64,000 nt of DNA, taken from NCBI GenBank assembly GCA_019915015.1, contig JAHBBC010000017.1:186001-250000 (forward strand). Reading direction: 5' to 3'. The notes beneath the pieces are model-generated. The model was given only the letters and a program-made list of their open reading frames with translations. It was not told the DNA's origin and ran no database searches. Numbering within the stretch: the first letter of the stretch is position 1; every line of letters starts with the position of its first letter. Below, piece after piece: positions 1,297-55,424 of the stretch. A program made the translations under genes and the position numbers. The stretch comes from Auriscalpium vulgare. Taxonomy: Eukaryota > Basidiomycota > Agaricomycetes > Russulales > Auriscalpiaceae.

Positions 1297-1304
1297 TATA
1301 AAGG
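1297..1304 (+). promoter_or_regulatory. TATA box of eqolisin gene 1
   Basis: The sequence TATAAAGG lies 89 nt upstream of the ATG at 1386. The equivalent position is occupied by TATAAAAG in the two tandem paralogues, which supports a real core promoter. Confidence 0.7.
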
Positions 1305-1385
1305 CTACCATTGCGCTTCCCTCTTTCACCAGGTTCCCTCCGGTACCGTCAGCCTTAGCCAGCTCACTCTAACAAGCTCACCGCC

Positions 1386-4099: not shown

Positions 4100-4107
4100 T
4101 ATAAAAG
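4100..4107 (+). promoter_or_regulatory. TATA box of eqolisin gene 2
   Basis: TATAAAAG lies 88 nt before the ATG at 4188. The context acaggtccgtcttcaggtgc just upstream is nearly identical before copy 3. Confidence 0.75.
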
Positions 4108-4187
4108 CTCAAGCAACGCTACCCTTGTTCTACAGGTTCTCCCCAGCACCTGCAGCTCTCCACAGCTTCACCCGCCAGCTCTCAATC

Positions 4188-6840: not shown

Positions 6841-6848
6841 TATAAAAG
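6841..6848 (+). promoter_or_regulatory. TATA box of eqolisin gene 3
   Basis: TATAAAAG lies 88 nt before the ATG at 6929, as for copy 2. Confidence 0.75.
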
Positions 6849-6928
6849 CTCAAGCAACGCTGCACTTGTTTACCAGGTTCTCTCCAGTACCTTCATCCCT
6901 CCACAGCTCCCCCCGCCAGCTCGCAGTC

Positions 6929-33200: not shown

Positions 33201-33337
33201 TCGTGATGTGCATGCCCTGCTGCGGCTAATAGGTGACCTAATTCGGTACAATGGCTCCGAAGACGCGTTGGCGCTGAAGTATATCTATCTGCGTTGCGAC
33301 GCGGTGCCGATCGTGATGTCCTGTCCATCCGCCCACA
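30280..33337. other. long stretch without a recognised gene
   Basis: Minus-strand frames at 30480-31287 include one hydrophobic stretch (LHIVLSVILTCLPVVLIHA), but the frames overlap and no splice model gives a known protein. A pair of short minus frames at 31917-32241 (starting MVYTIVLKNSIESEEVVV) looks somewhat protein-like but changes frame part-way. A tataaagg-type box on the plus strand near 32559 has no clear gene behind it, unless the membrane-protein gene at 33338 has 5' non-coding exons. Confidence 0.35.
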
Positions 33338-34969
33338 ATGCCCTTGCTATCATACCTCCTGCACACCGTCCTCGCGCAGGGCGTATCCGGCTCGCCCGTC
33401 TCCGACCTCCCTCCCCTGACCAACTCTACCGTTGCAGCCGATCCCTCGCCCGGATGTTTGGATATCAATAACTGTCGGACCACATCGAACATCGTGCTCA
33501 GCTGTCTGGCCACCATCTTCGCGTGCGTCTGGACTGCGGTCCATCGGAACATCCCCCGGCCCTCGACAGACGCGCGCTCGCAGATCCTGAACTTCTTGGA
33601 CATGGGGAAGGTCGTCCTGGTGACCTTGCTCGTGCCGGAGTGGGTCCTCGCATGGGCGGTTCGCCAATATCAGAACGCGCGTAACATCACGCAAGAGCTG
33701 GAGCTTGTTCGGGGCAGTGCGCAGCACGCGTGGATGAAGAAGAGGCAGTTGACGGTGTGGCCAGGCGATGGAACTCCCAAAGTCTCCGAGACGTCAATGC
33801 GCGTTGGTATGGATGCGTCGGAGACGGACTACGGCCTACCGTCGGTTTCCGTTCGCTTTCCTGCCGACGCTGCTGCGGATGAACCTTCAGGTGAGCCCAA
33901 GTCAATCAGACTAGAATTGTCTTCTGATGGTCACGAGCAGTGTCTGTAGACAAGATCGGCACCTGGCCGTCGAAAGAGGATGAGGTCAACAAGTTGTCCG
34001 ACCGTGAGCTGGACGAAGTCAGCCGCTTGTCTGGCGGTGAGCTCGTCGCCATCCATCGATATAAAGAGGTGCTTACCAACGCGCATCGCAGAGTGGACCC
34101 TCCGACACGGTTTCTTCATATCCATGGGGGGGTTCCACTACTACAAGAATGGGCGGCCCATCCATCCGCTCACCGCCTACGATGTTCTCGGCCATGTGCT
34201 CGATGGAGAGATCATCCCGCCTACGGATGACGAGATCCAGGCGATGGCACAGGCCGACGGACTGTCCAAGGGCCTTGCCGTCCTGCAGACGCTTTGGTTC
34301 GTTATCCAGTGCGCCGCGCGGCGAGCAGAAAACATTCCGATCACGCAGATCGAGGTCATGACGCTCGCGTATACGAGCATCACCCTCGCGATGTACATGG
34401 CGTGGTGGAGCAAGTCGCTCAACGTCGGCGGCCCCATCCGTTTCGCTGGCCAGCTCTCCGAAGGATGGGTTGGGCACCGCGAGAAGGGGTTTCTGCATTA
34501 TGTGAACCTGGTCATCGGAGACCAAGACTACGAAGTCGACATGCGGTCGGTCCCGCGCGTCCCGGCATTCTACGGTGGGCCCACCGACTTCGAACACATC
34601 CGCGCCGACGCTGTCTCCCTGTTTGCCGCGATGATCTTCGGCGCCATTCACTGTATTGCTTGGCGGTATGCCTTCCCCTCGCACACGGAGGCCATTGTCT
34701 GGCGTGTGTCCTCGGTCGCGATTACAGCCTTCCCTGGACTGGTGTGTCTGTATCTCGTATGGGAGCTCTCGCCATACGGTGATATCAATAGGGTCTTCTA
34801 TGTGAAAGACAACATTATCCTCATGATTGCTGTGACTATTCCCTTCGCTGCGGTGTACGTGCTTAGTCGACTGATCCTTCTGACACTCGCATTCACTACG
34901 CTTCGGGCACTACCTGCTACGGCGTATCAATCCATACAATGGACTCACTTCATTCCTCACTTGACGTAG
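33338..34969 (+). CDS. multi-pass membrane protein, family T copy 1
   Basis: Exons 33338-33890, 33941-34036 and 34092-34969 join to 508 residues. The N-terminus (MPLLSYLLHTVLAQGVSG) is a likely signal peptide. Predicted membrane segments are near SNIVLSCLATIFACVWTAV (50-68), VVLVTLLVPEWVLAWAV, MTLAYTSITLAMYMAWW, FAAMIFGAIHCIAW, ITAFPGLVCLYLVW, and IAVTIPFAAVYVLSRLILL. The family order, a LLxPEWVLAWA segment, then WTLRHGFFISMGGFHYY, DGLSKGLAVLQTLWFVIQCAAR and a C-terminal WTHFIPHL, is that of a large uncharacterised Agaricomycete membrane-protein family. Function is unknown. The second intron (55 nt, gtgagc to cgcag) is supported by the same junction in three paralogues. Confidence 0.85.
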
Positions 34970-35647: not shown

Positions 35648-36367
35648 AACATCTAAAATCTCAGAGGTTTGTCTTTCTGGCCGGCGGACTGAATTGAAAG
35701 CAGAAACCTAGCGCTGCCGTAGGCGATGCAAACGGCCCACTCGCCACGTTCGCTGCATGCCCGCCATCTGACGTCGCCCCAGATGTTAAACAGAGTCCGC
35801 CCACCGTAAAGAGAGCGTCCCGAGCGCGATCGCGCGAGGAATAAGATACAAAAAACTGCTTACTCAAATGCTACGGAAACTACCGCATTATGTAAGCGGC
35901 CGAACGGACGGGAGCGCCGCCCCGGCCCGGCGTGCGCGCTCACTTCCAAGTTCCTCAGGCTGATCAGCTCGCACTGTCCAAGTCACTTCCGAGTCCAACA
36001 CCAGACTCGTCTCACTGTCGCAGGAAGACGTTGTGCCGCACCTGACGACGGAGACGCGTGGTTTTCCTCGCATAACAGGTATTGGGTGGGCCCAGTGTAG
36101 GTGCCAGTTCCTTATCATCTCTTTCATCTTGTTTCGATTGAAAACTCACACCTCGTATAGCATTCATTGTGCTAGTCGCTCAGATACATTTATGTAAAGC
36201 GATGACTTGGTGCGCAGTTCAGAGACAGAGCTTGCCAGATTGATGTTGAGGAACGTGTCATCATTGTTCTCAAGGTTCAATATGTAAACGATACCCTCAA
36301 CTCACGCCAGCGACAAGGCCCTACGCTCGACATTTGTGCGTCCCCTCCAAACAAGACGGCCCGCAAC

Positions 36368-38551
36368 ATGGACACGACGCCCGACCTCGGCCAGTCCCAC
36401 AATTTTCAAATGCCCGTCCGGCATAAGACATCATTCGTTCGGCCGGAGATCCCCACCGCGCTGGACGGACAACAAACCCTCAAACTCGTGGACGGAAACG
36501 ACCTTGTTCTGCAGCACACTGTCCGTAGCAGCTTTCCTCTACACCATTCCACTCACACGGATACCGCCAGATCACTTCATTGTATGTCGTCGCGGGCGCG
36601 CTGGACCCGGTGCGCTTCTGCGCCGCGCTCTCTCGCACCCTTCAAAGCTTCCCTACCGTAGCTGGCCGCCTCAAAAGGAATGGCGATGAATGGCAGGTAC
36701 GTCCGCCCAGCTCCTGCCCTATATCTTTACTGCTCTAATTACGCCTTTCGTCTTCATCGCCCCCCGCTCGCCGCAGATTGACCTTTGCAACGGCCCCGTC
36801 CCCGTACACGTTGCGTCCTCTCCATCGTATCATGTCCTCCCCCACCCCCCCTCCGCAGCTGGCCTAGCGCTCTATGAGGATCCGCCAGCTGCAGCCCATG
36901 TTGTCCAGCCGTTCACGCACATCGCACCGTACGTTGATGAGGTCGACGTAGTCGCCGCTATGAACGGACAGCCCGAAGCGTACTTGTGCAGCTTTGTGCT
37001 GACGCTCATGGGCGACGGGCGAACTGCAATTGGTATCTCGTTGGATCATGTTTTGGGTGCGCATCTCACCACACTGTGTTTGACTCGATGTTGACATATG
37101 GCGGACACAAAGGCGACGAAACCACCGTCGGCCTTTTCATGCACACACTCTCTGCTTCATATATTGATATTGAGGCTGCCCTTGACGGTCCCCGCGCAGT
37201 CAGCTCACAGACTGCACCTGTTCCCGGTTCATGTGCGTTCTTTCGTTTTATACACCAGGTGTACCAGAGTAGTCTCACGCCGCCACTAGATGTCTCGAAT
37301 TCGCCTCCCATGCCGCTTTTTCAGAGCCGCTACTTTCCTCGATTACCGCCTGACCCGCTCAGCCTGGCGCACGAAGCGCTAGTCCGCGGCACAGCCCCCC
37401 ACCTACTGTGCTGCCATCCATTCGACAAATTCATCCAGGCCATCCGCGAGGAGTGCGACGAGACGGAGGCCGTTACGCTGCACTTTGAACAACGGACGGT
37501 CGAAGCTCTGTGGGAGCGCGCAAGAGCGGCCGTGCACCACGGCGCCGGAGAGTTGGGCCAAGAGAAGGTGACGCGCCACGACGCGCTCATCGCGTACCTC
37601 GTGACGCTGCAGAATGACTGCTCAGGCGAACCGCCAATACACACCATCCAGCACGTTATGAATGTATGTTCGTCTCACTGCCCATTGTCCAGCCCGTTCG
37701 CTTACCCCGCCTATGCAGGTGCGCCTCCGTCAGCCGCCCGCGGGATCCTCGCCGCACATGCTCCATCGCCATCCGCACGTCGTTGGGAACCGCCTGCAGA
37801 CGCCGAACATCCCTCTGCACTGCAAGCGCAGGAATGATGCGCTCGTTGGTGCAGAGCGCGGCGCGTGGTTCTCGGAAAGCTTGTATGAGATTGCAGAGGG
37901 CGCGCCTGCATGGCCCGCGTGGGCAGATGAGCCACAGCGCGCTGCGTCGTCCTTCCCAGAACCTGAAGATATAGAGCGACACGGACCTCAGCAATCAGAA
38001 GTGCAGGATCTATCCTTGGAGATGCCGTTAGAGGAAGGTGCTTCGCCGATCGCCCCGTATACCTCGCTCGGCCTTATTGCTCGGGCGTTCCGGCGCGGCA
38101 ACCGCCTCTATCGCCTCGACAACTGGACGGAGCGCTACCTCCGGCTCAACAGCGCGCGATACAAGGAGGGTGCACGCCGCGGTCGCTTCTCCAAGTACCC
38201 TGCTCCGGGTATGGTGGCCGTCAATTCGCTTATGGGGTGCGTCTCCCTGCTGTGTCCTCTCAGAGCCGCACTGACAGCCGTCCGGCGTACCGTAGGGTGG
38301 ACATCAAGGACAAAGCGCACTTTGGCTTTGGACCCGTGCAGTACTACTCAAACTGGTCGGCTCTGCGCATCTTTCGTGTGCACAATGCGAATCCCACGCT
38401 GAGTGCGTCGCCGGGGGCAAGCAAGGAGCAGAAGTGGCAGGACCCGGAAAGCGCTGTAGTGGTGTGCTTCAGGATGAAGATTGGCATGAGAAAAATGGTA
38501 GAGGATACGAAAGCGCGAGACGAAGAGGAGCTGAAGGCGGGTTTGGCGTAA
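36368..38551 (+). CDS. HXXXD (BAHD-like) acyltransferase, copy 1
   Basis: Seven exons (36368-36520, 36571-36696, 36777-37056, 37113-37232, 37290-37663, 37719-38236 and 38296-38551) join to 608 residues with no break. After splicing, exons 3 and 4 create H184-V-L-G-D188. This is the HXXXD catalytic motif of the PF02458-type transferases, in the context ISLDHVLGDETTVGLFMHTLS. A C-terminal HFGFG (about 532-536) sits where plant and fungal members have DFGWG. Other family-like blocks are FPTVAGRLKRNGDEW near the N-terminus and FPAPG..AVNSL before the last exon. The reaction expected from the family is acyl transfer from an acyl-CoA to an alcohol or amine; the substrate is unknown. It lies next to the repeat-peptide gene at 38954-39782. 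Confidence 0.85.
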
Positions 38552-38689
38552 TCGAGGCGGCTGGCTGACTTTGGGTTAGATAGAAGTCGCGTTCAATTGG
38601 AGTAGCGCGTCGAAGCATTCGTGCGGTCACATATCTCGCTGGGTTGTGAGTCTTTGCGCTGTCCCACATATGCGGCATCGTCAGAAGGG

Positions 38690-38953: not shown

Positions 38954-39782
38954 TCAGCTACTCACATCTATCAGCATCGTTAGAAAGAAATTAAAGGGAG
39001 CCTGACTGACTTGTGCGAGATGATGTTGGGGTTGCCGTTGGGAGAGGTGGTGGTTCCCGAATTATCGGAAGAGCTGGATGTTCCCGAATTATTGGAAGAG
39101 CTGGAGGTTCCCCCACGCTTGCTGCTCACATGAATCAGTATTCGCGAACTAAAAAAATTCAGGGAGCTCGACTGACTTGTGCGAGATGATGTTGGGATTG
39201 CCGTTGGGAGAGGTGGTGGTTCCCGAATTATTGGAAGAGCTGGATGTTCCCGAATTATTGGAAGAGCTGGAGGTTCCCCCACGCTTGCTGCTCACATGAA
39301 TCAGTATTCGTGAACCAAAAAAGTTCAGGGAGCTCGACTTACTTGTGCGAGATGATGTTGGGGTTGCCGTTGGGAGCGGTGGTGGTTCCCGAATTATCGG
39401 AGGAGCTGGATGTTCCCGAATTATTGGAAGAGCTGGAGGTTCCCCCGCGCTTGCTGCTCACATGTGTCAGTATCCGTGAACCAGAAAAAGTCGAGCTCGA
39501 CTTACTTGTGCAAAATGATGTTCGCGCCGGAGCCGTTGGGGGCGATGATGTTCGCGCCCGAGCCACCACGCCTGCTCACATGTGTCAGTAAGAATCAAAC
39601 GAAACAATAATGAGAGTTAGACTGACTTGTAGAGCTCGCCCCCGTTGGTGCTGCAAACATGAACGATTGAATGGTCAAATGACCGGCGGGCGGGGAAAAT
39701 GGCCCCAAACGCACCTCAGGGGAGCCGCGATGATAGGGAACGCGGCCGTGGTGACCAGCAGGATAACAGCGAGGAAGCGCAT
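38954..39782 (-). CDS. secreted repeat protein with Lys-Arg sites (KEP-like), copy 1
   Basis: Seven exons on the minus strand (39782-39715, 39650-39627, 39571-39506, 39453-39343, 39287-39177, 39121-39011 and 38957-38954) join in frame to 164 residues. Exon 1 is a signal peptide (MRFLAVILLV ... FPIIAAPL). Exon 3 encodes KRGGSGANIIAPNGSGANI. Exons 4-6 are three near-identical 111-nt repeats of 37 residues, each starting KRGGTSSSSNNSG and ending PNGNPNIISHN. Every repeat begins with Lys-Arg right after a splice acceptor, a Kex2 protease site. The introns contain in-frame stops, so splicing is required. This fits a Kex2-processed repeat protein that would release Ser/Thr/Asn/Gly-rich peptides of about 35 residues in the secretory pathway. 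Peptide function is unknown; a cell-surface or RiPP-like role is possible. Confidence 0.8.
39011..39453 (-). repeat. exon-intron tandem array, three units
   Basis: There are three 111-nt exon repeats with two 55-nt introns between them, period about 166 bp, over 90% alike by eye. Introns end gtgagcag and start gtaagt or gtcagt. Confidence 0.85.
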
Positions 39783-39831
39783 TTTATGCAAGCGTCGAGT
39801 TTGAGTGCAAAAGAACGGCTTGAAGAGACGT

Positions 39832-39876
39832 CTTGCATGTCAGAAGCGCATTCGGATGAGGTTTGTGATCACTTAC
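39832..39876 (-). other. possible 5'UTR intron of repeat-peptide gene 1
   Basis: On the minus strand gtaagtgatc... ends in catgcaag between the TATA box and the ATG. The second gene has gtaagt at the equivalent place (46377). This would explain the unusually long 180-190 nt from TATA box to ATG in both. Confidence 0.35.
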
Positions 39877-39964
39877 CACTGACAGCAGGTAGCGACCCTT
39901 AGATGAGATCCCGGGACTTTACTGGCGGCCAGAAAAGTCTGAGGAGTTCTCAACATCGACCGAG

Positions 39965-39974
39965 CCTTTTTATA
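39965..39974 (-). promoter_or_regulatory. TATA box of repeat-peptide gene 1
   Basis: Minus-strand TATAAAAAGG lies about 183 nt before the ATG at 39782. It sits in a block (about 39890-39990) nearly identical to the one before the second gene, which has the same box at the same distance. Confidence 0.6.
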
Positions 39975-40289
39975 CATAGAACGGCCGCTACACCAAGCTC
40001 TGGACACGGCCCTTCTCGCTAAACAATGTCAGCCATGGAGACCGGGGGTGACTATACTCCGCCAGAGAACTTTGAGAAGGTGTACCACGATCAAGAATTG
40101 CGACTCACATACCCTGTTCCGAGGCGATAGCCGAGAGGCGTCGCGCGCAAAACATCATTGATGGACAGGGTGACGGAGATGTGACTGAAGCCGTTCGCCT
40201 GCCGCCGGGGAGGGGAGGAGATCGTGTTATAGTAGGTCGTTATTTGGCTATTAGAATGTTGCTTTCCATCATCCTCGACTTGCAAACCA

Positions 40290-40450
40290 GACACTCACCG
40301 CTGTCGGTTGAACGAGACGACCGAGGGCCGAGGCGGGCCGGCGATCACGGCGGCTTCCGGCTTCCGTCACCTCGCGCAGCTCGCAGTCGCTCTGCCGCAC
40401 TGACCAAGGGGTGCCGCCGTCCCAGTCACCCCGCAGCTGCCCGTCGTCTG
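40290..40450. repeat. duplicated upstream block
   Basis: The blocks cgaggcgggccgg, cggcttccgtcac, cgcagtcgctctgccgcact and cagctgcccgt match 46790-46945 in order. They belong to the duplicated region upstream of the two repeat-peptide genes. Confidence 0.65.
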
Positions 40451-40715
40451 ACGAGTCAGAGGAACCTCGCGCTCGCAGCGTACACTTGGCTTGGACGCCT
40501 TCGGAGTACAAGTCAACTGGACCTGGTAACGCACTGACGCCGGACAGCGCGCGCCTCCACCGGGACGGATATATCATACTTGTACACCCTCGCAACAGTC
40601 GCGGCCTCGCTGCACTCTCATGCATTTATACGAACGTCCTAGTCTTGTGATCGTCGGGAATGTCAAGCGGGTGATCGAACTCTTGCGACCTCGACGCGTC
40701 CTCTGCATCAAGGCC

Positions 40716-42900
40716 TCAATTACGCCAACCCGCCTTCAGCTCCTCCTCGTCTCGCGCTTTCGTATCCTCTACCATTTTTCTCATGCCAATCTTCACCCTG
40801 AAGCACACCACTACAGCGCTTTCCGGGTCCTGCCACTTCTGCTCCTTGCTTGCCCCCGTCCGAATCGACGACGCATTCAGCGTGGGGTTCGCGTTGTGCA
40901 CACGAAACATGCGCAGGGCCGACCAGTTCGAGTAGTACTGCACAGGTCCAAAGCCGAAGTGTGCTTTGTCCTTGATGTCCACCCTGCGGGCAGCTGTCAG
41001 AGCGGCTCCGAGACGACAAGGTAGAGAGACACACACCCCACAAGCGAATTGACGGCCACCGCACCCGGAGCAGGGAATTTGTAGGCACGACCGCGGCGTG
41101 CGGCCTCCTTATATCGCGCGCTGTTGAGCTGGAGGTAGCGCTCCGTCCAATTGTCGAGGCGAGAGAGGCGGGTGCCGCGCCGAAATGCGCGAGCGATGAG
41201 ACCGAGCGAGGTATACGGGTCAAGGGGCGAAGCACCATCCTCCAATGGTGTCCTCAAGGACAGATCCTGCACTGCTAATTCTTGAGGACGAGGCGGGCGT
41301 ATATCTTCTGGCTCTGGGGAGGGTGAAGCAGCGGGCTGTGACTCGTCTGCCCACGCGGGCCATGCAGGGGCGCCCTCCGCGATCTCGTACAGACTTTGCG
41401 AGAACCACGCGCCGCGCTCTGCACCAACGAGCGCATCGTTGCTGCGCTTGCCATGCAGAGGGATGTTCGGGATTTGCAAGCAGTTCCCCGCGACGTGCGG
41501 GTGGCGATGGAGCAGGTGCGGCGATGATCCCGCGGGCGGCTGGCGGAGGCGCGCCTGCATACGCGGGGTAAGCCAAGATGAACGTCCGGAATGGGCAGTG
41601 AGCAGGACGAACATTCATGATGTGCTGGATGGTGTGTATTGGCGGCTCGCCTGAGCAGCGGTTCTGCAGCGTCACGAGGTACGCGATGAGCGCATCTTGG
41701 CGTGTCACCTTCTCTTGACCCAACTCTCCAGCGTCGACTGCTTCATCGCGCACGAAAGCCCGTGCTCGCTCCCACAGAGCTTCGACCGCCCATTTCTCGA
41801 AGTGCAGTGCAACGACCTCCGTCTTGGCCGACTCCTCGCGGTGAATCTGGATGAACTTGTCGAACGGATGGGAGCACAGTACGTGTGGTGATGTGCCGCG
41901 GACAAGCGCATCATGCGCCAGGCTGAGCGGGTCAGGCGGGAGCCGAGGAAAGGAGCGGCTATGAAAAAGCGGTGTGGGAGGCGAGTCCGAGACATCTGGT
42001 GATGGCGTGAGATACACGGGGTGCATAGGGGAAAAAAACGCACTGGAATGAGGAACACGTGTGTTCTGTGAGTTGGGTCCGCGGGAGCCGTCAAGGGTGG
42101 CCTCGATATATGAAGCGGAGAGTGTATGCATGAAGAGGCCGAAGGTGGGGCGGTCGCCTTTGTGTTCGCCATACGTAAACTTTAAGTCAACATCGGCATC
42201 GGGTGATGAGCTGCGCACCCAAAACATGATTCCACGAGATACCAATTGCAGTTCGCCCGTCGCCCATGAGCGTCAGCACAAAGCTGCACAAGTACGCTTC
42301 GGGCTGTTCCTTCATGGCGGCTACTACATCGACCTCATCAACGTACGGTGCGATGTGCGTGGGCGGCTGGACAACATGGGCTGCAGCTGGCGGGTCCTCA
42401 TAGAGCGCTCGGCCGGCTGCGGAGGGGGGGTGGGGGAGGACATGGTACGATGTTGAGGAAGCGACGTGTACAGGGACGGGGCCGTTGCAAAGGTTGATCT
42501 GTGGCGAGCGGGGTAGATGACGCCGAGATTGGGTATGGCATGACCCTGAGAGGACGCACCTGCCATTCGTCACCGTTCCTTTTGAGGCGGCCAGCTACGG
42601 TAGGGAAGCTTTGAAGAGTGCAAGAGAGCGCGACGCAGAAGTGCACTGGGTCCAGCGCGCCTGCGACGACATACAATGAAGTGACCTAGCCACGCGGCAG
42701 GGTATCCGTGTGAGTGGGATGGCATGGAGAGGAAAGCTGCTACGCACAGCATGGTGCAGGAGAAGATCGTTCCCGTCAACAAGTTCGAGTGTTTCTTGCC
42801 CATCCAACGCGGTTGGGATTGCGGGGCGAACGAATGATGTCTTTTGCCGGACAGGCAGTTGGAAACGATGTGGCTGGCCGAGACTGGGCGTCGTGTCCAT
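40716..42900 (-). CDS. HXXXD (BAHD-like) acyltransferase, copy 2
   Basis: Seven exons on the minus strand (42900-42748, 42685-42560, 42498-42219, 42157-42044, 41995-41613, 41554-41037 and 40983-40716) join to 613 residues. Every splice phase equals copy 1, and five of seven exon lengths are equal or within 9 nt. Splicing exon 3 to exon 4 gives HVLGD (184-188), the HXXXD motif, followed by RPTFGLFMHTLS. HFGFG is kept near the C-terminus (about 533). It starts MDTTPSLGQPHRF. It is convergent with copy 1 across the repeat-peptide gene. No stop or frameshift is seen, so it should be functional; the substrate is unknown. Confidence 0.85.
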
Positions 42901-44949
42901 GTCGCAAGCGATCTTGTTTGGAGAGGACGCACAGATGTCGCGAGTACTTGTCGCTGGCGTGAGTTGAGGGTAAGTAGTAACCATCGTAGTCCGTCTAAAT
43001 ATCAAACCTTGAGTACAATGATGACACATTCCTCAGCATCAATCTAGCAAGCTCTGTCTCTGAAATGCGCACCAAATCTTTGCTTTTACATAACTATGGC
43101 TGAGCGACTAGCACAGTAGCAGGATGAATGCTATATGGGGTGTGGATGTGAGATCCAAAACAAGACGAAAGAGAGGATAAGGGAATCGCACCGATGCAAC
43201 AGGCCCGCCCAGTACTTGTTACACACGCCTCCGTCGTCAGGTGCAGCACAACTGGTAGGATTGGCATTCTTCCTGCGACAGAAAGTCATCGATTTGCTTG
43301 GGGAAAGGCTGGGCGCGAACGAGAGCCCGAGGTGCCCGAGTTGAATAGCGAGCGGCTTGAATGAGACGAGTTCAAGGGGCGACGTCACGGCATACGGCGT
43401 TGTGTTCGAGAGGGAGGCACGGAACTTACTGCGGCGGGCAGCGACAAGGCAGCGGGCAGGCAGCAGCAGGCTTAAAGTGCGGCCAAAGTACAGGCGCTCA
43501 TCTTGACCAGGAATCCCTGAATCTGAGTTTGCTACGCGGACGTCGACCTACGCGATAGTAGAAGCCGTGAGTACATACGCATCGGGGTGGGAGGCCAGAG
43601 AGAAAACGCGATGGAGCCAGTACCTGTGCATAGTGAGCAATTACAAATCATCACAGATCAGCGTACAAACCTGAGGCAGACGGAGTCCTGACGCACCATC
43701 CGATGCTTTGCTATCTTCGAATATTTCCACCATCCTGAGGCAGCTGCAGTTGTCAGGCGAGAAAGAAAGGAAATGGGTAGGAGCCTACCTCGTACTGGCG
43801 CTATCATGAGACACATTAGCTCGATTCAGGATTTGGCTAACGTGAATGCGGAGCGGAGGGCTGAATCATTCTGTGCTACATGATGAGGAATGGTCAGATA
43901 AATCAGATATGTGGCGGCCGAAACGCACAATCCGGGCCTTCGCAATCACGGATGCTGCTTGCCTCCTTCCTCATGCTGGAAGGACCGCCGCTGTCTAACT
44001 TTAACATGGTCCTGTATGGCAAGGTAGTCGCTACCTCGATGCAACACGTGCGTGCGACGGTATTTGCAGGCACTGACGACCGGTGTGCATTTTTATCATC
44101 AGTACCGAGTCATTGGAAGTTATACAGGACGCACACTGTGGTCGGCACCTGAGACTGCCCCGCTCGCCAAAGCATCAAAGACCCTGCCAATCATAATCAG
44201 AGTGTCGCAATCAGCACCCCACCACCGGCATCCTCCAACTTACGTGGTCCTGAATGTTCAACTTTGGTTCAACTAGAACGGACGAACCCGACTGGATGTT
44301 GAGCTCAAAGTCGAGTCTCGAGGACAGTCACTGATCCAATGCGCACAAACTAGCGCAGCGAAGCGCGTTGAGTTCATGTGGGAGAGGAAGTAGCATGTAA
44401 TTCACGTCGCTGTCGTCCAGAGCAGAGTCGGCAGCAGACCGATGGTCTTTGGCCAGGAGCACCGGGCGGCGGGCGGCGCAGCCGAAGGCGGGCTGGCCGG
44501 CCGTGGGCGCCTACGTAGCGGCGCGCGCGGCGCCTCTCACTCACTGTTTTCCATATTCCGCATCGCGCTGTCGGCCATTCACTCGCCGAGCTTACAGTAC
44601 CAGGACGTTCGACATCAACCTGGAAAGGTCGGACTGTGTCTGCAAGTTGCCTGGTCAGGGCGACGGCGCTTCTAGCCGGTCAACGTGCAACCTTCATATA
44701 TGAAGGCGATACTACTGTACCATTTCGGTCGTAGACTCGCGTGTCGCATAACGGGGCCCTGCGAGCCGAGCCTATAGGTGACTTGGTCACGCATAACGGC
44801 GACCTGCGAGCCAATTTCCCCGTGATACTGAACAAAATGTCACGCAGCTAGTCAAGGATGGACGTCGATCACCTTCGACGCGTCCGTCTCCCTCTCGCTT
44901 CATGGGAATTATATCATATATATTTGTTCCCTTCGTGGGAGTTGGTAGT
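42901..44949. other. intergenic, no gene recognised
   Basis: The part just upstream of the acyltransferase (43150-43260: caagacgaaagagagg, agtacttgttac, cgtcgtcaggtgcag) is shared with 55660-55715 upstream of copy 3, so flanks were duplicated with the genes. The rest has only short overlapping frames. Confidence 0.45.
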
Positions 44950-45190
44950 CACATCTGAGGTGGATGGACTCGCACTGCGGCCCAGGGTACGGAGGCGTGC
45001 GTGCAGGTGCGAGGAGAGGAAGGTCGGGTTCTGCTGGCGCTTCCGTGCTCTCCTTGCTGATTCGTCGTCCGTATAAGTAGTATGAGACCCTCAAAACACT
45101 TTGTATGGTTTCCGCTGCCAACGAACTACACAACAGGACGTCGACGCTACACTCGACAGAATATGTCCAACTATGCAGGTCGTGAGCGAC
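44950..45190 (+). repeat. 3' flank repeat of repeat-peptide gene 2
   Basis: Second copy of the block at 38690-38895: aggaaggtcgggttctgctgg, gattcgtcgtccg, ccgctgccaacgaa and cgctacactcgacag appear in the same order and distance. Confidence 0.7.
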
Positions 45191-45215
45191 GGTCACGCAT
45201 CATAAAAGGCACTAC

Positions 45216-46276
45216 TTAATCAAGCGACGCCAGCTGACGCCCGGAAAACACAGACAAATCACGCCTGCTGTTCACATGTGTCAATATCCGTGATCCAAAA
45301 GAACAGCGAGCTCGACTGACTTGGGCTCAATGACGTTCGGGGGCCCGTTAGGAGAGCTAGTGGTTCCGGGCCCGTCGGGAGAGCTGGTCGTTCCCTGACG
45401 CTTGCTGCTCACATATGTGTCAATATCCGCGCGAACCAAAATAACAGCGAGCTCGACTGACTTGGGCTCAATGACGTTCGGGGGCCCGTTGGGAGAGCTG
45501 GTGGTTCCGGGCCCGTCCGGAGAGCTGGTCGTTCCCTGACGCTTGCTGCTCACATATGTGTCAATATCCGCGCGAACCAAAATAACAGCGAGCTCGACTG
45601 ACTTGGGCTCAATGACGTTCGGGGGCCCGTTGGGAGAGCTGGTGGTTCCGGGCCCGTCGGGAGAGCTGGTGGTTCCCTGACGCTTGCTGCTCACATACGT
45701 GTCAATATCCGTGAACCAAAATAACAGCGAGCTCGACTGACTTGGGCTCAATGACGTTCGGGGGCCCGTTGGGAGAGCTGGTGGTTCCGGGCCCGTGCCA
45801 AGAGTTGGTGGTTCCGTCTCCCGGACCCTGACGCTTGCTGCTCACATATGTGTCAATATCCGCGCGAACCAAAATAACAGCGAGCTCGACAGACTTGGGT
45901 TCAATGACGTTCGGGGGCCCGTTGGGAGAGCTGGTGGTTCCGGGCCCGTCGGGAGAGCTGGTGGTTCCCTGACGCTTGCTGCTCACATACGTGTCAATAT
46001 CCGTGAACCAAAATAACAGCGAGCTCGACTGACTTGGGCTCAATGACGTTCGGGGGCCCGTTGGGAGAGCTGGTGGTTCCGGGCCCGTCGGGAGAGCTGG
46101 TGGTTCCCTGACGCTCGCTGCTCACATACGTGTCAATATCCGTGAACCAAAATAACAGCGAGCTCGACTGAGATAGATGCGGGCGGGGAGGATGGCCCGG
46201 GAACGCACCTCAGGGGAGCCGCGATGATAGGAAACGCGGCCGAGGTGACCAGGAGGATAACAGTGAGGAAGCGCAT
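45216..46276 (-). CDS. secreted repeat protein with Lys-Arg sites (KEP-like), copy 2
   Basis: Eight exons on the minus strand (46276-46209, 46117-46034, 45978-45895, 45837-45742, 45686-45603, 45545-45462, 45404-45321 and 45267-45216) join in frame to 211 residues. Exon 1 is a signal peptide (MRFLTVILLV ... FPIIAAPL) alike to copy 1. Six middle exons each encode one repeat: QGTTSSPDGPG, then TTSSPNGPPNVIEPN, then KR at the next exon start. The third is 12 nt longer and varied (QGPGDGTTNSWHGPG). The first has Glu-Arg instead of Lys-Arg. The last exon adds RRDLSVFSGRQLASLD. Expected Kex2 cleavage gives several copies of a 26-residue Cys- and Tyr-free peptide. Introns are 53-57 nt; those of 57 nt contain no in-frame stop, so retention could fuse neighbouring repeats. 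Confidence 0.82.
45321..46117 (-). repeat. exon-intron tandem array, six units
   Basis: Six units of an 84-nt exon (one of 96 nt) plus an intron of 55 or 57 nt give a period of about 139-141 bp and near-identity by eye. The intron variants differ by a cgcg/gt change (cgcgcgaacc versus cgtgaacc). They alternate along the array, which suggests duplication of pairs as well as single units. Confidence 0.88.
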
Positions 46277-46462
46277 CTTATGCAAGCGTCGAGGTTGAGT
46301 GTAAAAGAACAGCTTGTGATGAGCAGAGAATTATTGCACGTCAGAAGCGCATTCAGATGAAGACTGTGAAGACTTACCAACAACACGTAGCGACTCTTAG
46401 ATGAGATCCCGGGACTTTACTGATGGCCAGCAAAGTCTGAGGACTTCTCGACATCGACCGAG

Positions 46463-46472
46463 CCTTTTTATA
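46463..46472 (-). promoter_or_regulatory. TATA box of repeat-peptide gene 2
   Basis: Minus-strand TATAAAAAGG lies about 190 nt before the ATG at 46276, in a block shared with the first gene (cgaccgagcctttttata on the plus strand). Confidence 0.6.
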
Positions 46473-46789
46473 CGTAGAATGGTCGCGACACCGGAAGTCT
46501 GGACACGGCCCTCTCGTTGAACACGGTCGGACATGGAGACCGGGGGAGATTGTACTCCGACATAGAGTGCAATGACTCGAAAGGCGTACAACGATCAAGA
46601 ATTGCGACTCACATGCCTGTTCCGAGTCGAATGCCGAGAGTAAAAATAGAGAAGTGAGTAAAGCCGTTCGCCTACCAATTCCTGCCGCCGGGGAGGGGAG
46701 GAGATCGTGTTGAAATTTGGCACTTACCATGTCAGCGGAGCAAAGGCTACTAGTACTGGTACTGAAACCGGACGCTCACCGCCGTCGGG

Positions 46790-46945: not shown

Positions 46946-48253
46946 GGCGCTTGCATGCGGCCCCGAACGGCGTCCTGCGCGACTCCAGCGCGATCCAGCG
47001 GTCCAGAACTAGCACTGTTACTGGCGACACGCACGCGGCCCACACGGCCAGTTGCGACGCTGTGCAACTGGCGTGTGGGGTGGTAGGCTGGGCACGTAAG
47101 AATTAGAAAGCATGACGCGGTTGGTCGGGGAGGCATGCGAGGCCGAGCTGGCAAATGCAGGTGCGCACCACGCTAGTGCCCTGCTGGCACATGCCTCGCC
47201 CTCCAACATCCTGCAGCTATGAGCCGCCTGCGGGCTTTTTTCTCCTTCCGTTGGCGCGTTGCTGAGCTCCATCCCAGAAGAAAGCATGCCTTTCACTCTA
47301 ATCTAAAACACTCGCAGCACGGCGTCAGACACCAGTGCATCCGCGTCGCCCGATGATGCTAGAATTCAAACTTCACTGAAAGAGTTCGACGTGGGCTCTT
47401 TCCATGGTGCGCGGCCTTCTTCCCTGTGTCAGCATGTCTGGCAGATCACTGATTTGAATAGGTCTAGCATCCTGATCGAGGCATCAGGCCGGCTACGACG
47501 ACACATCACAGGCTCTTATGCGGCATAATTGCGCTCCTGCCATACACCGCGGGGAATGGGAACACGTACGCCCATATCTTCAAGCTCGCGAGCATCCTCG
47601 TGGGGGAGGGCCTCCTGACAACGACGGTTGCGCGTACTTATTGCCGGTTAGTGGACAAAAAAACCGCACAGTGAGCGACGCTGCTTCGGAGCGCTTGCTC
47701 TTCATAGGGCTATATCTGTGTCAGCGGAGACGGTACTGATCGCAGCAGCTGCCCGGTGTATCGCATGCTACGCTCATACGCTGACGCTGTGACATTGCGT
47801 TCGCAGGGTGTGCCCTTCGGCGTAAAATGGAGGCCACGATTGCGGTAACATACGCTTTGTTGCCATCTTGGTTCGTTAGGGAAATAAAGAAGGTTACTTT
47901 GATGCTCATTGATTCGTTGATGACCGCAGCTTGACCGACTCTGTCCCAGCGTTCTCCCTCACCTCACATGCATCCGTCAACCTCGTCGCCTCTGCTAGAC
48001 ATGTACCGTGCGTCGCCCCCGAAAACATATTACACTCAGTCCGGTCGCCACGTCTTGCTCGACGTATCGGCGAGGTGTGTGCAGCGTTCGGCGCTGTCTG
48101 CGTGTGTTCTGTGCCTGACGAGGGCGCTGTTGGTGGCACAGCCGCCGACAGACAAGAATAGCTTCGAGATGGATGCATCGCAGAACAATACATGTCAACT
48201 TCCTGTCAAGAGGTATATCAGGCAGCTCATAGGGGCGATGCATTCTACCCACC
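46946..48253. other. intergenic, no gene recognised
   Basis: Only short frames are seen. The last 60 bases (aggcagctcataggggcgatgc...) resemble the DNA before family T copy 3 (51150-51185) and are its promoter-proximal flank. Confidence 0.4.
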
Positions 48254-49931
48254 ATGCCCCTTCTCCATTACCTGGTACATGCGCTGGTCGCTCAACGCGT
48301 GGGTGGCTCTCCCGTTTCCAAACTCACTGTCCCCGCCAACTCCACCGATACTACCCTGGCCGCCGCCTCAGCGTCCGCAGCGTCCGGCTGCCGGGACATC
48401 GACTCCTGCAGGACTCTCTCGAACATCGTGCTCAGCTCCCTGGCCACCATCTTCGCATGCGTTTGGACCGCTGTCCACCGGAACATCGCACGACCCTCCC
48501 GTGACCGGCGCTCGCGCATCCTGAATATCGTGGACATGATGAAGGTCATTGTCGTGACGCTGCTCGTCCCGGAGTGGGTTTTTGCGTGGGCGGCTCGCCA
48601 GTTCCTGGTTGCGCGTCTGGTTGCCCAAAATTTGGAGGACGTCCGGGGAGATGCACAGGGCGCATGGATGAAGAAGAGAGGGTTGGCATCGTGGCCAGGT
48701 AATTCAACGGCCGCCTCACCGAGCAAAAAGGAAAACCTGACTGGTAGGTGTTCTGATACAGAATATGTCGTATCACTGATTCCTACACCCCGATACTTGT
48801 TGTAGAGGTACCATCGGGTGCGTTACGGTTTCATGTCTTAGATGCGAATGTCGCTTGACAGCCGTGGACAGTGTCTGGAGAAGACGCAGTGCACCTCCTG
48901 TCCGCCTCTCAGCCGTCGCGAAAAGACGGGGCCGACCTTTTGTCCGACAGTGACTGGGACGAGGTTGATCGCTTGGACGCCAGTACGTTCGGCACCGTCT
49001 ATGGTGATTTACAGCGTGCTCACCAACGCGCATCACAGAGTGGACGGCCCGGCACGGGTTTTTCATCATCATGGGGGGATTCCATTTCTACGAGAAGGGA
49101 AAACCAAAGCACCCGCTGGACCCAGACAACGTCATTACTCTCCTGCGAGATGGAGAGCTCATCCTGCCGACGGAAGATGAGATCCAAGCACTCGGGCATT
49201 CCGACTCTCTGTCCAAGGGCCTCGCCGTCCTCCAGACCATGTGGTTCATCGTGCAGTGCATTGCGCGACGAGCGGAAGGCCTTCCGATCACGCAGCTGGA
49301 GCTCATGACGCTCGCGTATACGAGCGTCACGGTCGCAATGTACGCAGCGTGGTGGAGCAAGCCGCTCAACGTTGGTTTCCCTATCCGCTTCGATGGGAAG
49401 CTCTCTGGCGGACATGCGGGAAAGTCCAAGACGCGCATGAAGCACTATGTGAGAGTGGCCATGGGATACCAAGACGGTGAAGTCGATATTCGATCATTAT
49501 CTCACGTCCCAGCATTCTATGGTGGGGACTGGACAGACGACCAAGCGACTAGTGCCTCCATCACTTCTATATTCACTATGCTTGTTTTTGGTGCGATTCA
49601 CTGTATCGCCTGGCATAATATCTTCCCTTCGCACGCAGAGGCCGCTGTGTGGCGTGTATCTTCCGTGACCATTACAGCCTTACCAGGATTGTTTTGCCTT
49701 GCTTTACTGCTAGCGTGGGCTCTCGATTCTGCTCCTGATGGGTGGCATATTGTCAAGGCTGCTCTTAAAGTCTGTGGCGCGGTGATAGTAGCTATGCCAC
49801 TGCCGTTTGCTGCGGTCTATGTTCTTACTCGACTTGCCCTTTTTATACTGGCCTTTTCTACACTTCGGGCCCTGCCCGCTGCGGCGTACCGATCTGTCCA
49901 ATGGACTCACTTCATCCCTCACTTGACGTAG
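48254..49931 (+). CDS. multi-pass membrane protein, family T copy 2
   Basis: Exons 48254-48743, 48806-48817, 48872-48982 and 49039-49931 join to 501 residues. The 12-nt second exon (encoding part of EVPSV) is inferred because it restores the frame and matches the uninterrupted KVPSE of copy 3. An N-terminal signal-like segment (MPLLHYLVHALVA), about six membrane segments, a DWDEVDRLDAKWTARHGFF junction, DSLSKGLAVLQTMWFIVQCIARRAEGLPITQLELMTLAYTS-type core, and C-terminal WTHFIPHL match copies 1 and 3. Function is unknown. It is the nearest neighbour of repeat-peptide gene 2, divergent from it. Confidence 0.82.
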
Positions 49932-50606: not shown

Positions 50607-51185
50607 AAGTATGACGGAAGCAGTTGATCACAAACCGCGTAACGCCTCTGGTGCGACATTTCTCGAGGTCATGCTGCATGATTTTGGTCGCGATTGAACC
50701 AACCGAGGCTGGGGTCATATACACGCACGCCCATCAAACCTGCAGGCAGAGTGCAAGTTGAAGGCTGCATAGTATTGACGTCGGAGGAGGCTTGAATCCG
50801 TCATGATACAAATGGTGGGATGGTAACCGGTCGATGCAGCACTACTGACGATCAATCGTTTGCGAGGGGTGCGCGGACTCGAAAGGTGACGTACGTGTTC
50901 TTGTTAGTCCGCGACGCCGCGGTGACTAGGTGGATTGTGCGATACATTAGCGCACGGAGCAGAGCAGGATCTCACTTCACGGTGAGCTGGCAATGGCGCG
51001 TACTGTCGATCAGTCGTCGAGACTCGACTGCGGATGGGAAGGGATGCCGGGAGCCGGCGGGAGGGCCGGGGGTGCCGAGGTGCACAGCTTTTTGCAAGAT
51101 CCAACGGCGATTGCGCACTACAAGCCCCGTAGAGATGATCGATGATCAGGCAGCCTACGGTGGCGATGCACCCTACTTACCCGCC

Positions 51186-52784
51186 ATGCTCCTTCTCTCT
51201 TACCTGACCCACACCCTGGTCGCTCACTTCGCGGGTGGCTCTCCCGTTTCCACCCTCACCAGCACCGTCCCCGCCAACTCCACCGATACTACCATGGCCG
51301 CCGCCGAGTCAGCGTCCGGCTGCCGGGACATCGACTCCTGCAGGACACTCTCGAACATCCTGCTCAGTTCCCTAGCCACTATCTTCGCATGCGTTTGGAC
51401 TGCTGTCCACCGGAACGTTGCACGGCCCTCCCGTGACCGGCGCTCGCGCATCCTGAACATTGTGGACATGGTGAAGGTCATTGTCGTGACGCTGCTCGTC
51501 CCGGAGTGGGTCCTCGCGTGGGCGGCTCGCCAGTACCTGGTCGCGCGTCTGGTCGCCCAAAAACTGGAGGACGTACGGGGAGATGCGCAGGGCGCATGGA
51601 TGGAGAAGAGAGGGTTGGCGTCGTGGCCAGGTGATTCGAAGGTCGCCTCACCGAGCAAAAAGGCAAAGGTGCCATCCGAGGGTGCGTTGTGGCTTAAGTC
51701 TACCGTTTAGATGCGAATCTCGCTTGACAGCCGTGGGCAGAAGACGAAGTGCATCTCCTGTTAGCCGCTCAGCCGTCGCGGAAAGATGAGGCCGACCTTT
51801 TGTCCGACAGTGACTGGGACGAAGTTGATCGCTTGGACGCCAGTAAGTTCGGCACCGTCTATGGTGATTTACAGCAAGCGCTCACCAACGCACATCCCAG
51901 AGTGGACGACCCGGCACGGGTTCTTTATTATCATGGGGGGATTCCATTTCTACGAGAAGGGAAAACCAAAGCACCCGCTAGACTCAGACAACGTCATCAC
52001 TCTCCTGCGAGACGGAGAGCTCATCCTGCCGACGGAAGATGAGATCCAAGCACTCGGGCATGCCGACTCACTATCCAAGGGCCTCGCCGTGCTCCAGACC
52101 ATGTGGTTCATCGTGCAGTGCATTGCGCGACGAGCGGAAGGCCTCCCGATCACGCAGCTGGAGATCATGACGCTCGCGTATACGAGCATCACGGTCGCAA
52201 TGTACGCAGCGTGGTGGAGCAAGCCGCTCAACGTTGGTATCCCCATCCGCTTCGATGGGAAGCTCTCTGGCGGACATACGGGAGTAGTGGCAACGCGCAT
52301 GAGACACTTTGCGAAAGTGGTCATGGGAGCCCAAGACGATGAAGTCAATATGCGATCAGTCTCGCACGTCCCAGCATTCTATGGTGGGGACTGGACAGAT
52401 GACCAATTCGTTAATGCCGGTGGCATTTCTATCTCGGCCATGCTGATTTTCGGTGCGATTCACTGTATTGCCTGGAATTATATCTTCCCTTCGCACGCAG
52501 AGGCCACTGCGTGGCGTGTATCTTCCGTGACAATCACAGCCTTGCCAGGATTGTTTTTCCTTATATTCTTGCCACTACTGTTTGCTTTCAATTATGCTCC
52601 TGATAGCTGGCATCACAAGGCTATAGGTCGCGCCCTGTTGTCAGCTATGCCGCTGCCATTTTCTATAGTCTATGTTCTTACTCGGCTTGTCCTTTTTGTA
52701 CTGGCTTTTTCTACACTTCGAGCCCTGCCCACTGCGGCGTACCAATCTGTCCAATGGACCCACTTCATCCCTCACTTGACGTAG
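51186..52784 (+). CDS. multi-pass membrane protein, family T copy 3
   Basis: Exons 51186-51681, 51741-51842 and 51901-52784 join to 493 residues. It is the closest relative of copy 2: both share RNVARPSRDRRSRILNIVDM-like and LVPEWV.AWAARQ..VARLVAQ blocks and GMNPLL-free, DWDEVDRLDAKWT junctions. The segment after the junction (RHGFFIIMGGFHFYEKGKPK) is nearly identical to copy 2, whereas the last two membrane segments differ more (FLIFLPLLFAFNYAPDSW). The ATG at 51186 is preferred over an upstream frame that has no signal-like start. No break is seen. Unknown function; plasma-membrane or endomembrane protein by its segments. Confidence 0.84.
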
Positions 52785-53235
52785 CGGCCTAAGCTGTTTT
52801 GTAGCAGCACCGTGGTCTTCTCTGTATTTCACATCTACGTATCCCTCGCTCCTTTACTCGAGTATACTATCATCGCATCGTCAGACATATCATCATGAAG
52901 GAGCATCCGGACTCATTTGCCGGTAAGTGAAATTCTCCGAAACTCCCTTTACATAATGGCAGCGGGCGTCAGCTACATTCATTTAGGTTTGACTCTCAAG
53001 GTCACCACGCGCGAAGACAGGAACCTAACGCTCGCAGCGTACACTGGATTCTCGGAGTATGGCTGGACTACAGTGACGCCGGACAGCGCGCGCCTCCACC
53101 GGCGGAACCGATATATACACCTTCGCACCTTCGCGGCCTCGCTGCACTCTCATGCATTTATCTGAGCGTCCTAGGCCTGTGGCCATCGGGAATGTCAAGC
53201 GCGTGAAATCTTCCGACCTCGACGCGTCCTCTGCC

Positions 53236-55424
53236 TCAATTACGCCAACCCGCCTTCAGCTCCTCGTCTCGCGCTTTCGTCTCCTCTACCCTTTCTCTCA
53301 TGCCAATCTTCACCCTGAAGCACACCACCACAGCGCTTTCCGGGTCCTTCCACTTCTGCTCGTTGCTTGCCCCCGTCCGAATCGACGACGCATTCAGCGT
53401 GGGGTTCGCGTTGTGCACACGAAACATGCGCAGGGACGACCAGTTCGAGTAGTACTGCACAGGTCCAAAGCCGAAGTGCGCTTTGTTCTGGATGTGCATC
53501 CTGCGGGCAGCTGTCAGAGCGGCGGCTCCGAGACGACACGGTAGAGAGACGCACCCCACAAGCGAATTGACGGCCACCGCACCCGGAGCAGGGATATGGT
53601 AGACGCGACCGAGGCGTGCGGCCTCCTTGAATCTCGCGCTGTTTAGCCGGAGGTAGCGCTCCGTCCAATCGTCGAGGCGAGAGAGGCGGGTGCCGCGCCG
53701 AAATGCGCGAGCGATGAGGCCGAGCGAGGTATACGGGGCGAGGGGCGAAGGACCTTCCTCCAATGGTGTCCCCAAGGACAGATCCTCCACTGCTAAGTCT
53801 TGAAGACCACGCGGACGTTTATCTTCTGAATCGGTAGAGGATGAAGCAGCGGGCTGTGGCTTGTCTGCCCACGCGGGCCATGCAGGGGCGCCCTCCGCGA
53901 TCTCGTACAGACTTTCCGAGAACCACGCGCCGCGCTCTGCACCAACGAGCGCATCATTGCTGCGCTTGCCATGCAGAGGGATGTTTGGTATTTGCACGCA
54001 GTTCCCAGCGACGTGCGGGTGGCGATGGAGCAGGGGCGGCGATATTCCCGCCGGCGGCTGACGGAGGCGCGCCTGCGTGTGGGGTGTCAGCCAAGATGAA
54101 CGTCCGCGATGGGCAGTGACTCTGAGACAGACGTACATTCATGACGTGCAGGATGGTGTGTATTGGCGGCTCGCCTGAGCAGCGATTCTGCAGCGTCACG
54201 AGGTACGCGATGAGCGCATCGTGGCGTGTCACCTTCTCTTGATCCAATTTTCCAGCCCCGACTGGTTCGTCGCGCACGGCCGCCTTTGCGCGCTCCCACA
54301 GAGCTTCGATCGTCACACTTTCAAAGTGCAGCGCAACGACCTCCGTCCGGGCGGACTCCTCACGGACTCCCTGGATGAACCTTTCGAACGGATGGCTGCG
54401 TAGCACGTGTGGTGATGTGCCGCGGACGAGCGCTTCGTGTGCCGGGCTGAGCGGGTCATGCGGGAGCAGAGGAAAAAAGCGACTCTGAAAAAGCGGTATG
54501 GGAGGTGAGTCCGAGACAGCTAGTGGTGTGAAATTACTCGTTGTACACCGGGTGTACAGATATACAGAACGCACTTGGACCAGGACGACGTGTATAGTCG
54601 ACCCCGCGGAAGGCGCCAAGGGCGGCCTCGATATATGAAGCAGAGAGCGCGTGCATGAAGAGGGCGAAGGTAGTTTCGTCGCCTTTGTGTCCAACGTAAG
54701 TCAAATTTGAGGAAACATCGGGTGATGAGATGCGCACCCAAAACATGACTCAACGAGACACCAATAACAGTTCGCCCGTCGCCCATGTGTGTCAGCACGA
54801 AGCTGCACAAGTACGCTTCGGGCTGTCCATTCATGGCAGCTACTACGTCGACCTCATCAACGTAAGGTGTGATGTGCGTGGGCGGCTGGACGACATGGGC
54901 TGCAACTGGCGGATCCTCATGGAGCGCTAGGCCAGCTGCGGAGGGTGGGTGGGGGAGGACATGGTACGATGGGGAGGACGCAACGTGTACGGGGACGGGG
55001 CTGTTGCAAAGGGCAATCTGCGGCGAGCGGAAGAAAGGCGTAATCAAAGCTGCGGAGAAGATAGAGGGCATGAGCGGGTGGACGTACCTGCCATTCGTCG
55101 CCATTCCTTTTCAGGCGGCCAGCTATGGTGGGAAAGTTTTGAAGAGTGCGAGAAAGCGCGGCGCAGAAGTGCACTGCGTCCAGCGCGCCCGCGACAACAT
55201 ACAATGAAGTGACCTAGCCACGCAGCAGGGTATCCGTGTGAGTGGGATGATGCGAGAGGAAAGCTGCTACGCACAGCATATTGCAGAACAAGATCGTTTC
55301 CGTCGACGAGTTCTAGGGTTTCTTGTCCGGCCAGAGCAGTTGGGATCTCCGGACGAACAGATAATGTCTTATGCCGGACAGGCTGTTGAGGAGTATGTGA
55401 CTTGTCGAGGTTGGGCGTCTGCAT
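53236..55424 (-). CDS. HXXXD (BAHD-like) acyltransferase, copy 3
   Basis: Seven exons on the minus strand (55424-55275, 55213-55088, 55017-54738, 54682-54575, 54519-54137, 54072-53555 and 53500-53236) join to 609 residues, with the same phases as copies 1 and 2. HVLGD (183-187) is again assembled across the exon 3/4 junction in GVSLSHVLGDETTFALFMHALS. HFGFG follows near residue 530. The intron after exon 4 is essential: without it the frame meets a stop after HPVYNE. The N-terminus is diverged (MQTPNLDKSH). No repeat-peptide gene lies beside this copy. Confidence 0.85.

Follow-up and report, generated by a model that had tools for sequence, protein, structure and literature searches.

Fungal Kex2-processed repeat proteins (KEPs), as described in PMC6339444, PMC7329392 and PMC9769878, share an N-terminal secretion signal and at least three near-identical repeats with Lys-Arg between them. 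The definition used in PMC6339444 asks for three or more repeated motifs with KEX2 sites between them, the repeats making up at least 15% of the protein. Such proteins are widespread and mostly of no known function, and the surveys of them rest on protein catalogues. Two genes on the minus strand of a 64,000-nucleotide stretch of the Auriscalpium vulgare genome (contig JAHBBC010000017.1, positions 186,001 to 250,000; this whole stretch is called the window below) would encode precursors of this sort: gene 1 has three units of 35 residues and gene 2 has six of 26 or 30, with Lys-Arg between them, and the repeats account for 64% and 76% of the respective proteins. Judged from their sequence, both are quite probably intron-rich KEP genes that have diverged within a Russulales family whose gene frame is fixed and whose peptide cargo changes.

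In Coprinopsis cinerea, KEP peptides with pyroglutamate have been detected by mass spectrometry, and KEP 497993 of that species gives peptides starting with Gln, as gene 2 does (PMC9769878); by this analogy, the Gln-starting peptides of gene 2 probably carry pyroglutamate, and the product is predicted as (pyro)QGTTSSPDGPGTTSSPNGPPNVIEPN. The window genes differ from the described KEPs in having one repeat per symmetric exon with the Kex2 site at the splice junction, and in their conserved introns and a common frame with unlike cargo. In the main texts of these three papers no passage on gene structure was found under the words intron and exon, which are absent from PMC7329392 and PMC6339444 and occur in one methods passage of PMC9769878. 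No paper that matched by its title or the start of its abstract was found for Auriscalpium together with Kex2 or small secreted proteins, or for fungal proteins with one exon per repeat, and supplementary tables may list members. No name for the family was found in the literature; the KEP kind is known, and the exon design is unusual.

Conotoxin genes are animal venom genes that are not known to have tandem cargo exons like those of the window genes. The likeness of the window genes to them is one of analogy only, with no homology: in conotoxin superfamilies, too, the introns are conserved and the mature-peptide exon changes most, and rare recombination and alternative splicing have been proposed there (PMC3862624). 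The SP7-like effectors of arbuscular mycorrhizal fungi are likewise a secreted tandem-repeat family recognised partly via a conserved intron, but they act in the plant nucleus, their main text does not bring in Kex2, and they are likened here by description only (PMC11333574).

Two further kinds of fungal product had been named in an initial annotation of this DNA: precursors of ribosomally synthesized and post-translationally modified peptides (RiPPs) of the ustiloxin type, for which Tyr cross-links were thought unlikely, and surface peptides of the Rep1 type. Dikaritin RiPPs, to which ustiloxin belongs, have a Tyr in the core peptide for cross-linking. As that annotation stated, the repeat peptides of the spliced products contain neither Cys nor Tyr (one repeat variant contains Trp), and of the matches found in the genome to UstYa/UstYb (PF11807), whose genes lie beside the precursor in this type, at least 14 in all, none is on the window's contig; the ustiloxin type was therefore set aside, and its cross-links do appear unlikely. 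Rep1-type repellents are amphipathic peptides affecting surface hydrophobicity. The repeat peptides are rich in Gly, Ser, Thr, Asn and Pro, with a mean hydropathy of -1.08 and -1.13, a composition unsuited to that type, and the suggestion of Rep1-like products is not backed by it.

Structure of the two genes

Splicing by hand on the minus strand reproduced exactly the 164- and 211-residue proteins that the initial annotation had proposed. The parts of gene 1, all on the minus strand, are:

38954..39782, minus strand: coding region, seven exons, 164 amino acids (hand splice model)
39782-39715, 39650-39627, 39571-39506, 39453-39343, 39287-39177, 39121-39011 and 38957-38954, minus strand: exons 1 to 7
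39715..39782, minus strand: putative signal-peptide exon, MRFLAVILLVTTAAFPIIAAPL, homologous to exon 1 of the paralogs
39627..39650, minus strand: 24-nucleotide exon, STNGGELYK (splice model)
39011..39453, minus strand: three repeat exons of 111 nucleotides, each with one 35-residue peptide GGTSSSSNN...NIISHN, Lys-Arg in between
39783..40000, minus strand: TATA-type promoter, 5' untranslated region (5'UTR) and 5'UTR intron, common to the family (alignment of family loci)

Those of gene 2 are:

45216..46276, minus strand: coding region, eight exons, 211 amino acids (hand splice model)
46276-46209, 46117-46034, 45978-45895, 45837-45742, 45686-45603, 45545-45462, 45404-45321 and 45267-45216, minus strand: exons 1 to 8
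45321..46117, minus strand: six repeat exons (five of 84 nucleotides, one of 96), one peptide each, QGTTSSPDG...NVIEPN or a 30-residue variant
46118..46208, minus strand: hybrid intron 1, its 5' part from the family's intron 1 and its last 53 nucleotides an inter-repeat intron
45216..45267, minus strand: tail exon ending ...RRDLSVFSGRQLASLD, by eye like the family tail ...LLSGRSFNDLD
46277..46500, minus strand: TATA-type promoter, 5'UTR and 5'UTR intron, common to the family (alignment of family loci)

In these splice models the exons measure 68, 24, 66, 111, 111, 111 and 4 nucleotides (nt) in gene 1 and 68, 84, 84, 96, 84, 84, 84 and 52 nt in gene 2; the stop codons lie at 38956-38954 and 45218-45216, and the introns, all GT..AG, are 52-64 and 53-91 nt long. 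The range of 24-111 nt given earlier for the exons fits all of them except the last exon of gene 1, which has 4 nt. Gene 1 is predicted to yield its three 35-residue units and one divergent unit of 21 residues, and gene 2 five units of 26 residues and one variant of 30. Most repeats do follow Lys-Arg, as had been claimed for every one of them, but the first repeat of gene 2 comes after Glu-Arg; Arg-Arg stands after its last. The repeat exons of gene 1 are separated by mutually alike 55-nt introns. Its exon 1, its intron 1 and only the first 6 nt of its exon 2 align to the paralog at C33:357k (75%, 138 nt), where the corresponding exon begins STNQAREL, and the 24-nt exon may, as a weak inference from this alignment, be a shortened propeptide exon.

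Both proteins begin with a hydrophobic N-terminus ending in IIA-AP, a candidate signal peptide, which is homologous to exon 1 of the paralogs. Several features speak for the soundness of the models. The promoter, signal exon and 3' region match further genome loci, with E values outside the window down to 5e-26. All 13 introns of the two genes are in phase 2 and all internal exons are 0 mod 3 in length, while intron lengths fall in all three mod-3 classes, introns of one type ranging from 52 to 57 nt irrespective of frame. Among the differences of the repeat exons from their consensus, 9 of 12 are synonymous, against 26% expected (p 6e-4), or 8 of 11 (p 2e-3) if a change common to two exons is taken once; this count covers the 84-nt exons of gene 2 (five) and the 111-nt exons of gene 1 (three), leaving out the 96-nt and 66-nt exons.

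The dibasic sites tend to lie at the splice junctions. In genes 1 and 2, 10 of the 13 introns are at most two residues from such a site, and in eight gene models of the family this holds for 25 of 49, compared with 7% of all positions in the same proteins; 48 of those 49 introns are in phase 2. In genes 1 and 2 the intron splits the Asn codon before the dibasic pair, except for intron 2 of gene 1, which splits a Lys codon; in the paralogs C4a, C33e, C33a and C36 it is the Lys codon of Lys-Arg that is split wherever intron and site coincide. Three of the eight models (gene 1, gene 2 and C36) were read by hand, and C4a, C33e, C33a, C33c and C52b were taken as predicted by a simple gene-model script, C52b with a doubtful 2-nt exon. 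The script was run on 12 loci, on five of them again with laxer settings, and on four more. Excluded before counting were C85 (allele of C36), C4c (a near copy of C52b) and C37, C29, C4b, C2a, C4d and C33b, whose models overran the expected end or looked wrong.

A search of the genome for the proprotein-convertase P domain gave one match; it covers positions 1-59 of the domain's 86, and its unspliced frame contains one stop. The peptides end in NGNPNIISHN and NGPPNVIEPN (39011-39453 and 45321-46117), which are loosely like NGNIEPY, the end of a C. cinerea KEP peptide confirmed by mass spectrometry (PMC9769878), a likeness too short to judge.

Taken together, genes 1 and 2 are likely to be genuine KEP genes, a pair whose exon design is unusual and which is part of a larger family in the Russulales. 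The central proposal of the initial annotation, two paralogous precursors of putative Kex2-cut repeat peptides hidden by short exons, is backed by this predicted gene structure.

The gene family and its introns

Searched against the genome, the 5' part of a C4 gene gives 23 matches, which mark about 21 places, both window genes included (two places are split in two, one match has only 43 nt, and C85 and C36 are alleles). A TATA-type element, the start region, the 5'UTR intron and the signal exon are common to the 16 places, out of the roughly 21, that were aligned, and an exact pattern finds the TATA-type motif in 14 of these 16. On these alignments both genes are part of a family of about 21 places with a common gene frame and differing peptides; the paralogous pair described earlier stands, and it sits within this wider set. 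Outside the window, the DNA of gene 2 matches C85/C36, C37, C33 and C4. A composite query made for the tail gave 36 matches at E up to 0.1, and intron 7 and the tail exon of gene 2 match C85 and C36 at 75%.

The cargo varies from place to place: it is DMWSDIEGLLSELTPKTGDTNSNII in C85/C36, hydrophobic Gly/Ala-rich modules in C4, C33, C29 and C2, units containing Cys in C37 and C33:357k, and RRDQLAFDRLQ units in C52. The repeat region of gene 1 has genome matches only to itself and gene 2, and the gene 2 protein finds nothing beyond the two window genes except one weak place on C37 (E 0.3). The alleles C85 and C36 (L017 4200-4950 and L018 4430-5130; 99.2% identical over 5573 nt) have repeated cargo exons, five in C36, and two intron types that are differently ordered between them; five of their introns are 54 nt long with the weak donor GTCGTT, four of these being open in frame, and the family tail is lost to an early stop. 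Other members are grouped at C33:221k, 315k, 338k, 357k and 399-402k and at C24:253-312k, which suggests clusters.

Searching the protein collection with a profile built from four paralog proteins gave 14 relatives out of 7997 candidates scored. The twelve that are named (P0001-P0012: nine from Auriscalpium vulgare, two from Artomyces pyxidatus and one from Gloeopeniophorella convolvens) are hypothetical proteins, the most similar with 96% identity over 91% of the query; a precomputed Pfam domain is listed for P0006 only. By this likeness the window belongs to an Auriscalpium, A. vulgare itself or a near relative. The twelve resemble the genome's paralogs in their Gly/Ala-rich modules, with the tail in 10 of 12, and differ in this cargo from the peptides of genes 1 and 2, which are rich in Ser, Thr, Asn and Pro. 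No Pfam family scored above cut-off in three family proteins, and an AlphaFold model of relative P0009 (ten sequences) was unusable, with a mean predicted local distance difference test score of 45. The gene 2 protein had no relative among the 7992 candidates sharing most with it, which is weak evidence of absence given its low-complexity words, and the spliced C85 paralog likewise had no match among its 7992 best candidates; nine other A. vulgare members of the family do stand in this collection.

Across paralogs the introns are more alike than the peptide exons, the reverse of usual coding genes. As means over all inter-exon introns after the first, intron identities are 0.78 between genes 1 and 2, 0.78 between gene 2 and C36 and 0.74 between gene 1 and C36, and for C4a 0.70 with gene 2 and 0.68 with both gene 1 and C36, against 0.57 for shuffled sequences. 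(A narrower choice, with introns 3-5 of gene 1 and 2-3 of C4a, gave 0.72-0.82; it favoured the conserved-intron interpretation, and the full-set values are preferred.) Repeat exons stay near the shuffled level against C36, with 0.59 for gene 2 (shuffled 0.56) and 0.54 for gene 1 (shuffled 0.50), and reach 0.60 between genes 1 and 2, against 0.52 shuffled.

The first intron of gene 2 measures 91 nt. Over its last 53 nt it has the same sequence as the inter-repeat intron 2 of that gene, and over its first 25-30 nt it resembles intron 1 of C85 and of gene 1 with scores of 21 and 19, where the best of 2000 shuffles gave 13 and 14. On the simplest reading of this sequence, it would be a join of intron 1 with a repeat intron, a propeptide exon like that of C85 having been removed; this hybrid is evidence, at the level of sequence comparison, of recombination inside an intron. 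Mobile introns of the introner type place the same intron sequence in unrelated genes. A search with one intron pattern, allowing up to three mismatches, gave ten matches, of which gene 2 holds seven and two C4 genes three, and a reversed control gave none; all ten being within the family, introners were rejected as the source of the close copies. Introns of gene 1 and C36 escape this pattern, and distant copies elsewhere are therefore possible.

Proposed mechanism and competing explanations

In the mechanism we propose, the transcript would be spliced at short phase-2 exons encoding one peptide each, and the precursor would enter the secretory pathway via its signal exon. Kex2 would then cut after Lys-Arg, Kex1 would trim the basic ends, and peptides of about 26 and 35 residues would be secreted. 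Since each cargo exon is symmetric and lies between introns that resemble each other, the number and kind of peptides may be altered by unequal crossing-over or by exon skipping with the frame and cleavage sites intact. It is a tentative further reading of the sequence comparisons that the family could be a Russulales cassette system, with promoter, 5'UTR intron, signal exon and tail fixed and the peptide exons duplicated, lost and swapped through recombination within introns, the peptides diversifying in a venom-like way while the introns stay alike. Nothing beyond the one recombinant intron points directly to an exchange of cargo exons, which seems worth testing. The most likely role would be that of a diversified set of secreted peptides acting on organisms around the fungus, and this is the weakest step of the proposal.

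A number of observations weigh against these interpretations. Almost half of the introns in the eight models (24 of 49) lie away from dibasic sites, introns 4 and 5 of C4a are little like the inter-repeat type, and the repeat exons of genes 1 and 2 are related, so that the variation between these two would be divergence and not swapping. C36 (and, by eye, C85) ends early and gene 1 has lost the family tail, either of which could mean decay. Six kep knockouts in C. cinerea were without visible phenotype and synthetic peptides were without antibacterial activity (PMC9769878); because of these null results, the outward role proposed here is not backed by that study. The gene-model script, moreover, picked other models for both genes: in gene 1 it placed the acceptors of two introns 21 nt further downstream, with the loss of Lys-Arg there, and used a different last exon, and in gene 2 it left three 57-nt introns unspliced and ran beyond the tail exon. 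The hand models draw on the regularity of the repeats and the shared TGTGAGCAG-like acceptor.

It is distinctly possible, if short of probable, that these are ordinary KEP genes shaped by local tandem duplication and gene conversion, the frame coming from plain gene duplication and the peptides reflecting old divergence of weakly constrained linkers, without any exchange of cassettes. Repeats and introns are near-identical within each gene, as under concerted evolution, the C85 and C36 alleles differ in the order of their intron types despite their near identity, and the kinship of the gene 1 and gene 2 peptide exons points the same way. Neutral exons should not, however, be less conserved than introns between paralogs, and both the hybrid intron 1 of gene 2, with its recombination within introns, and the synonymous excess in the repeats fit such a history poorly.

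We consider it unlikely that the products are surface or cell-wall peptides, hydrophilic and Ser/Thr/Asn-rich, possibly glycosylated and coating hyphae, rather than signals or weapons. Their composition would suit a coat of this kind, Ser and Thr making up 16 of 35 residues in gene 1 and 8 of 26 in gene 2, with net charges of -1 and -2 and one N-glycosylation sequon in the gene 1 peptide examined. This same hydrophilic, weakly negative character makes amphipathic assembly of the Rep1 type improbable, as it does membrane lysis by cationic helices, and since other family members carry hydrophobic Gly/Ala-rich modules, one shared surface role seems unlikely.

Still less probable is that transcripts often keep the open-frame introns, those of 57 nt in gene 2 and of 54 nt in C85/C36, the main products then being longer units with an extra hydrophobic stretch and the dibasic end kept. 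In gene 2 the frame does run through three 57-nt introns, and in C36 through four of its five 54-nt introns, so that they could be retained; the script leaves open introns in, and the donor GTCGTT in C85/C36 is weak. Donor and acceptor signals are nonetheless kept, and similar introns with lengths of 52, 53 and 55 nt disrupt the frame or contain stops, which argues that intron length is free of frame constraint and so counts against retention. That the two genes are family remnants in decay or without function, repeats of a satellite-like kind that make no product, is very improbable even with the tail gone from gene 1 and no relative of gene 2 among the 7992 candidates, given that splice sites, frame and promoter are intact in both and that synonymous changes are in excess.

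Genes made of exons of 24-111 nt may escape protein catalogues, and fungi may therefore secrete more peptides, of more kinds, than current estimates suggest. Introns that are more alike than the peptide exons between them offer a concrete, testable mechanism for the renewal of secreted peptides in mushrooms.

Surroundings in the window

Gene 1 is framed by two copies of one gene region, at 36030-38558 (plus strand) and 40460-43415 (minus strand), mutually inverted around it; a third copy recurs downstream at 53019-55875 (minus strand), the three being about 81% identical. No Pfam family scored above cut-off in the scanned frames of the first two. Four related gene copies with membrane-like hydrophobic stretches lie at 33317-34969, 48217-49931, 50796-52784 and 57205-58727, pieces of their DNA being 68-87% identical; in the two that were scanned, 33317-34969 and 50796-52784, Pfam again gave nothing above cut-off. 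The same was true of ten neighbouring open frames, and of six frames at a laxer limit, and Rfam gave nothing in the window at gathering scores. The segment 50031-50627 came near the cut-off for DUF6535, with 22.1 against 23.9 bits, and positions 1276-7963 form a tandem repeat, seen as a 4-kb match at 79% identity whose offset is about 2.8 kb.

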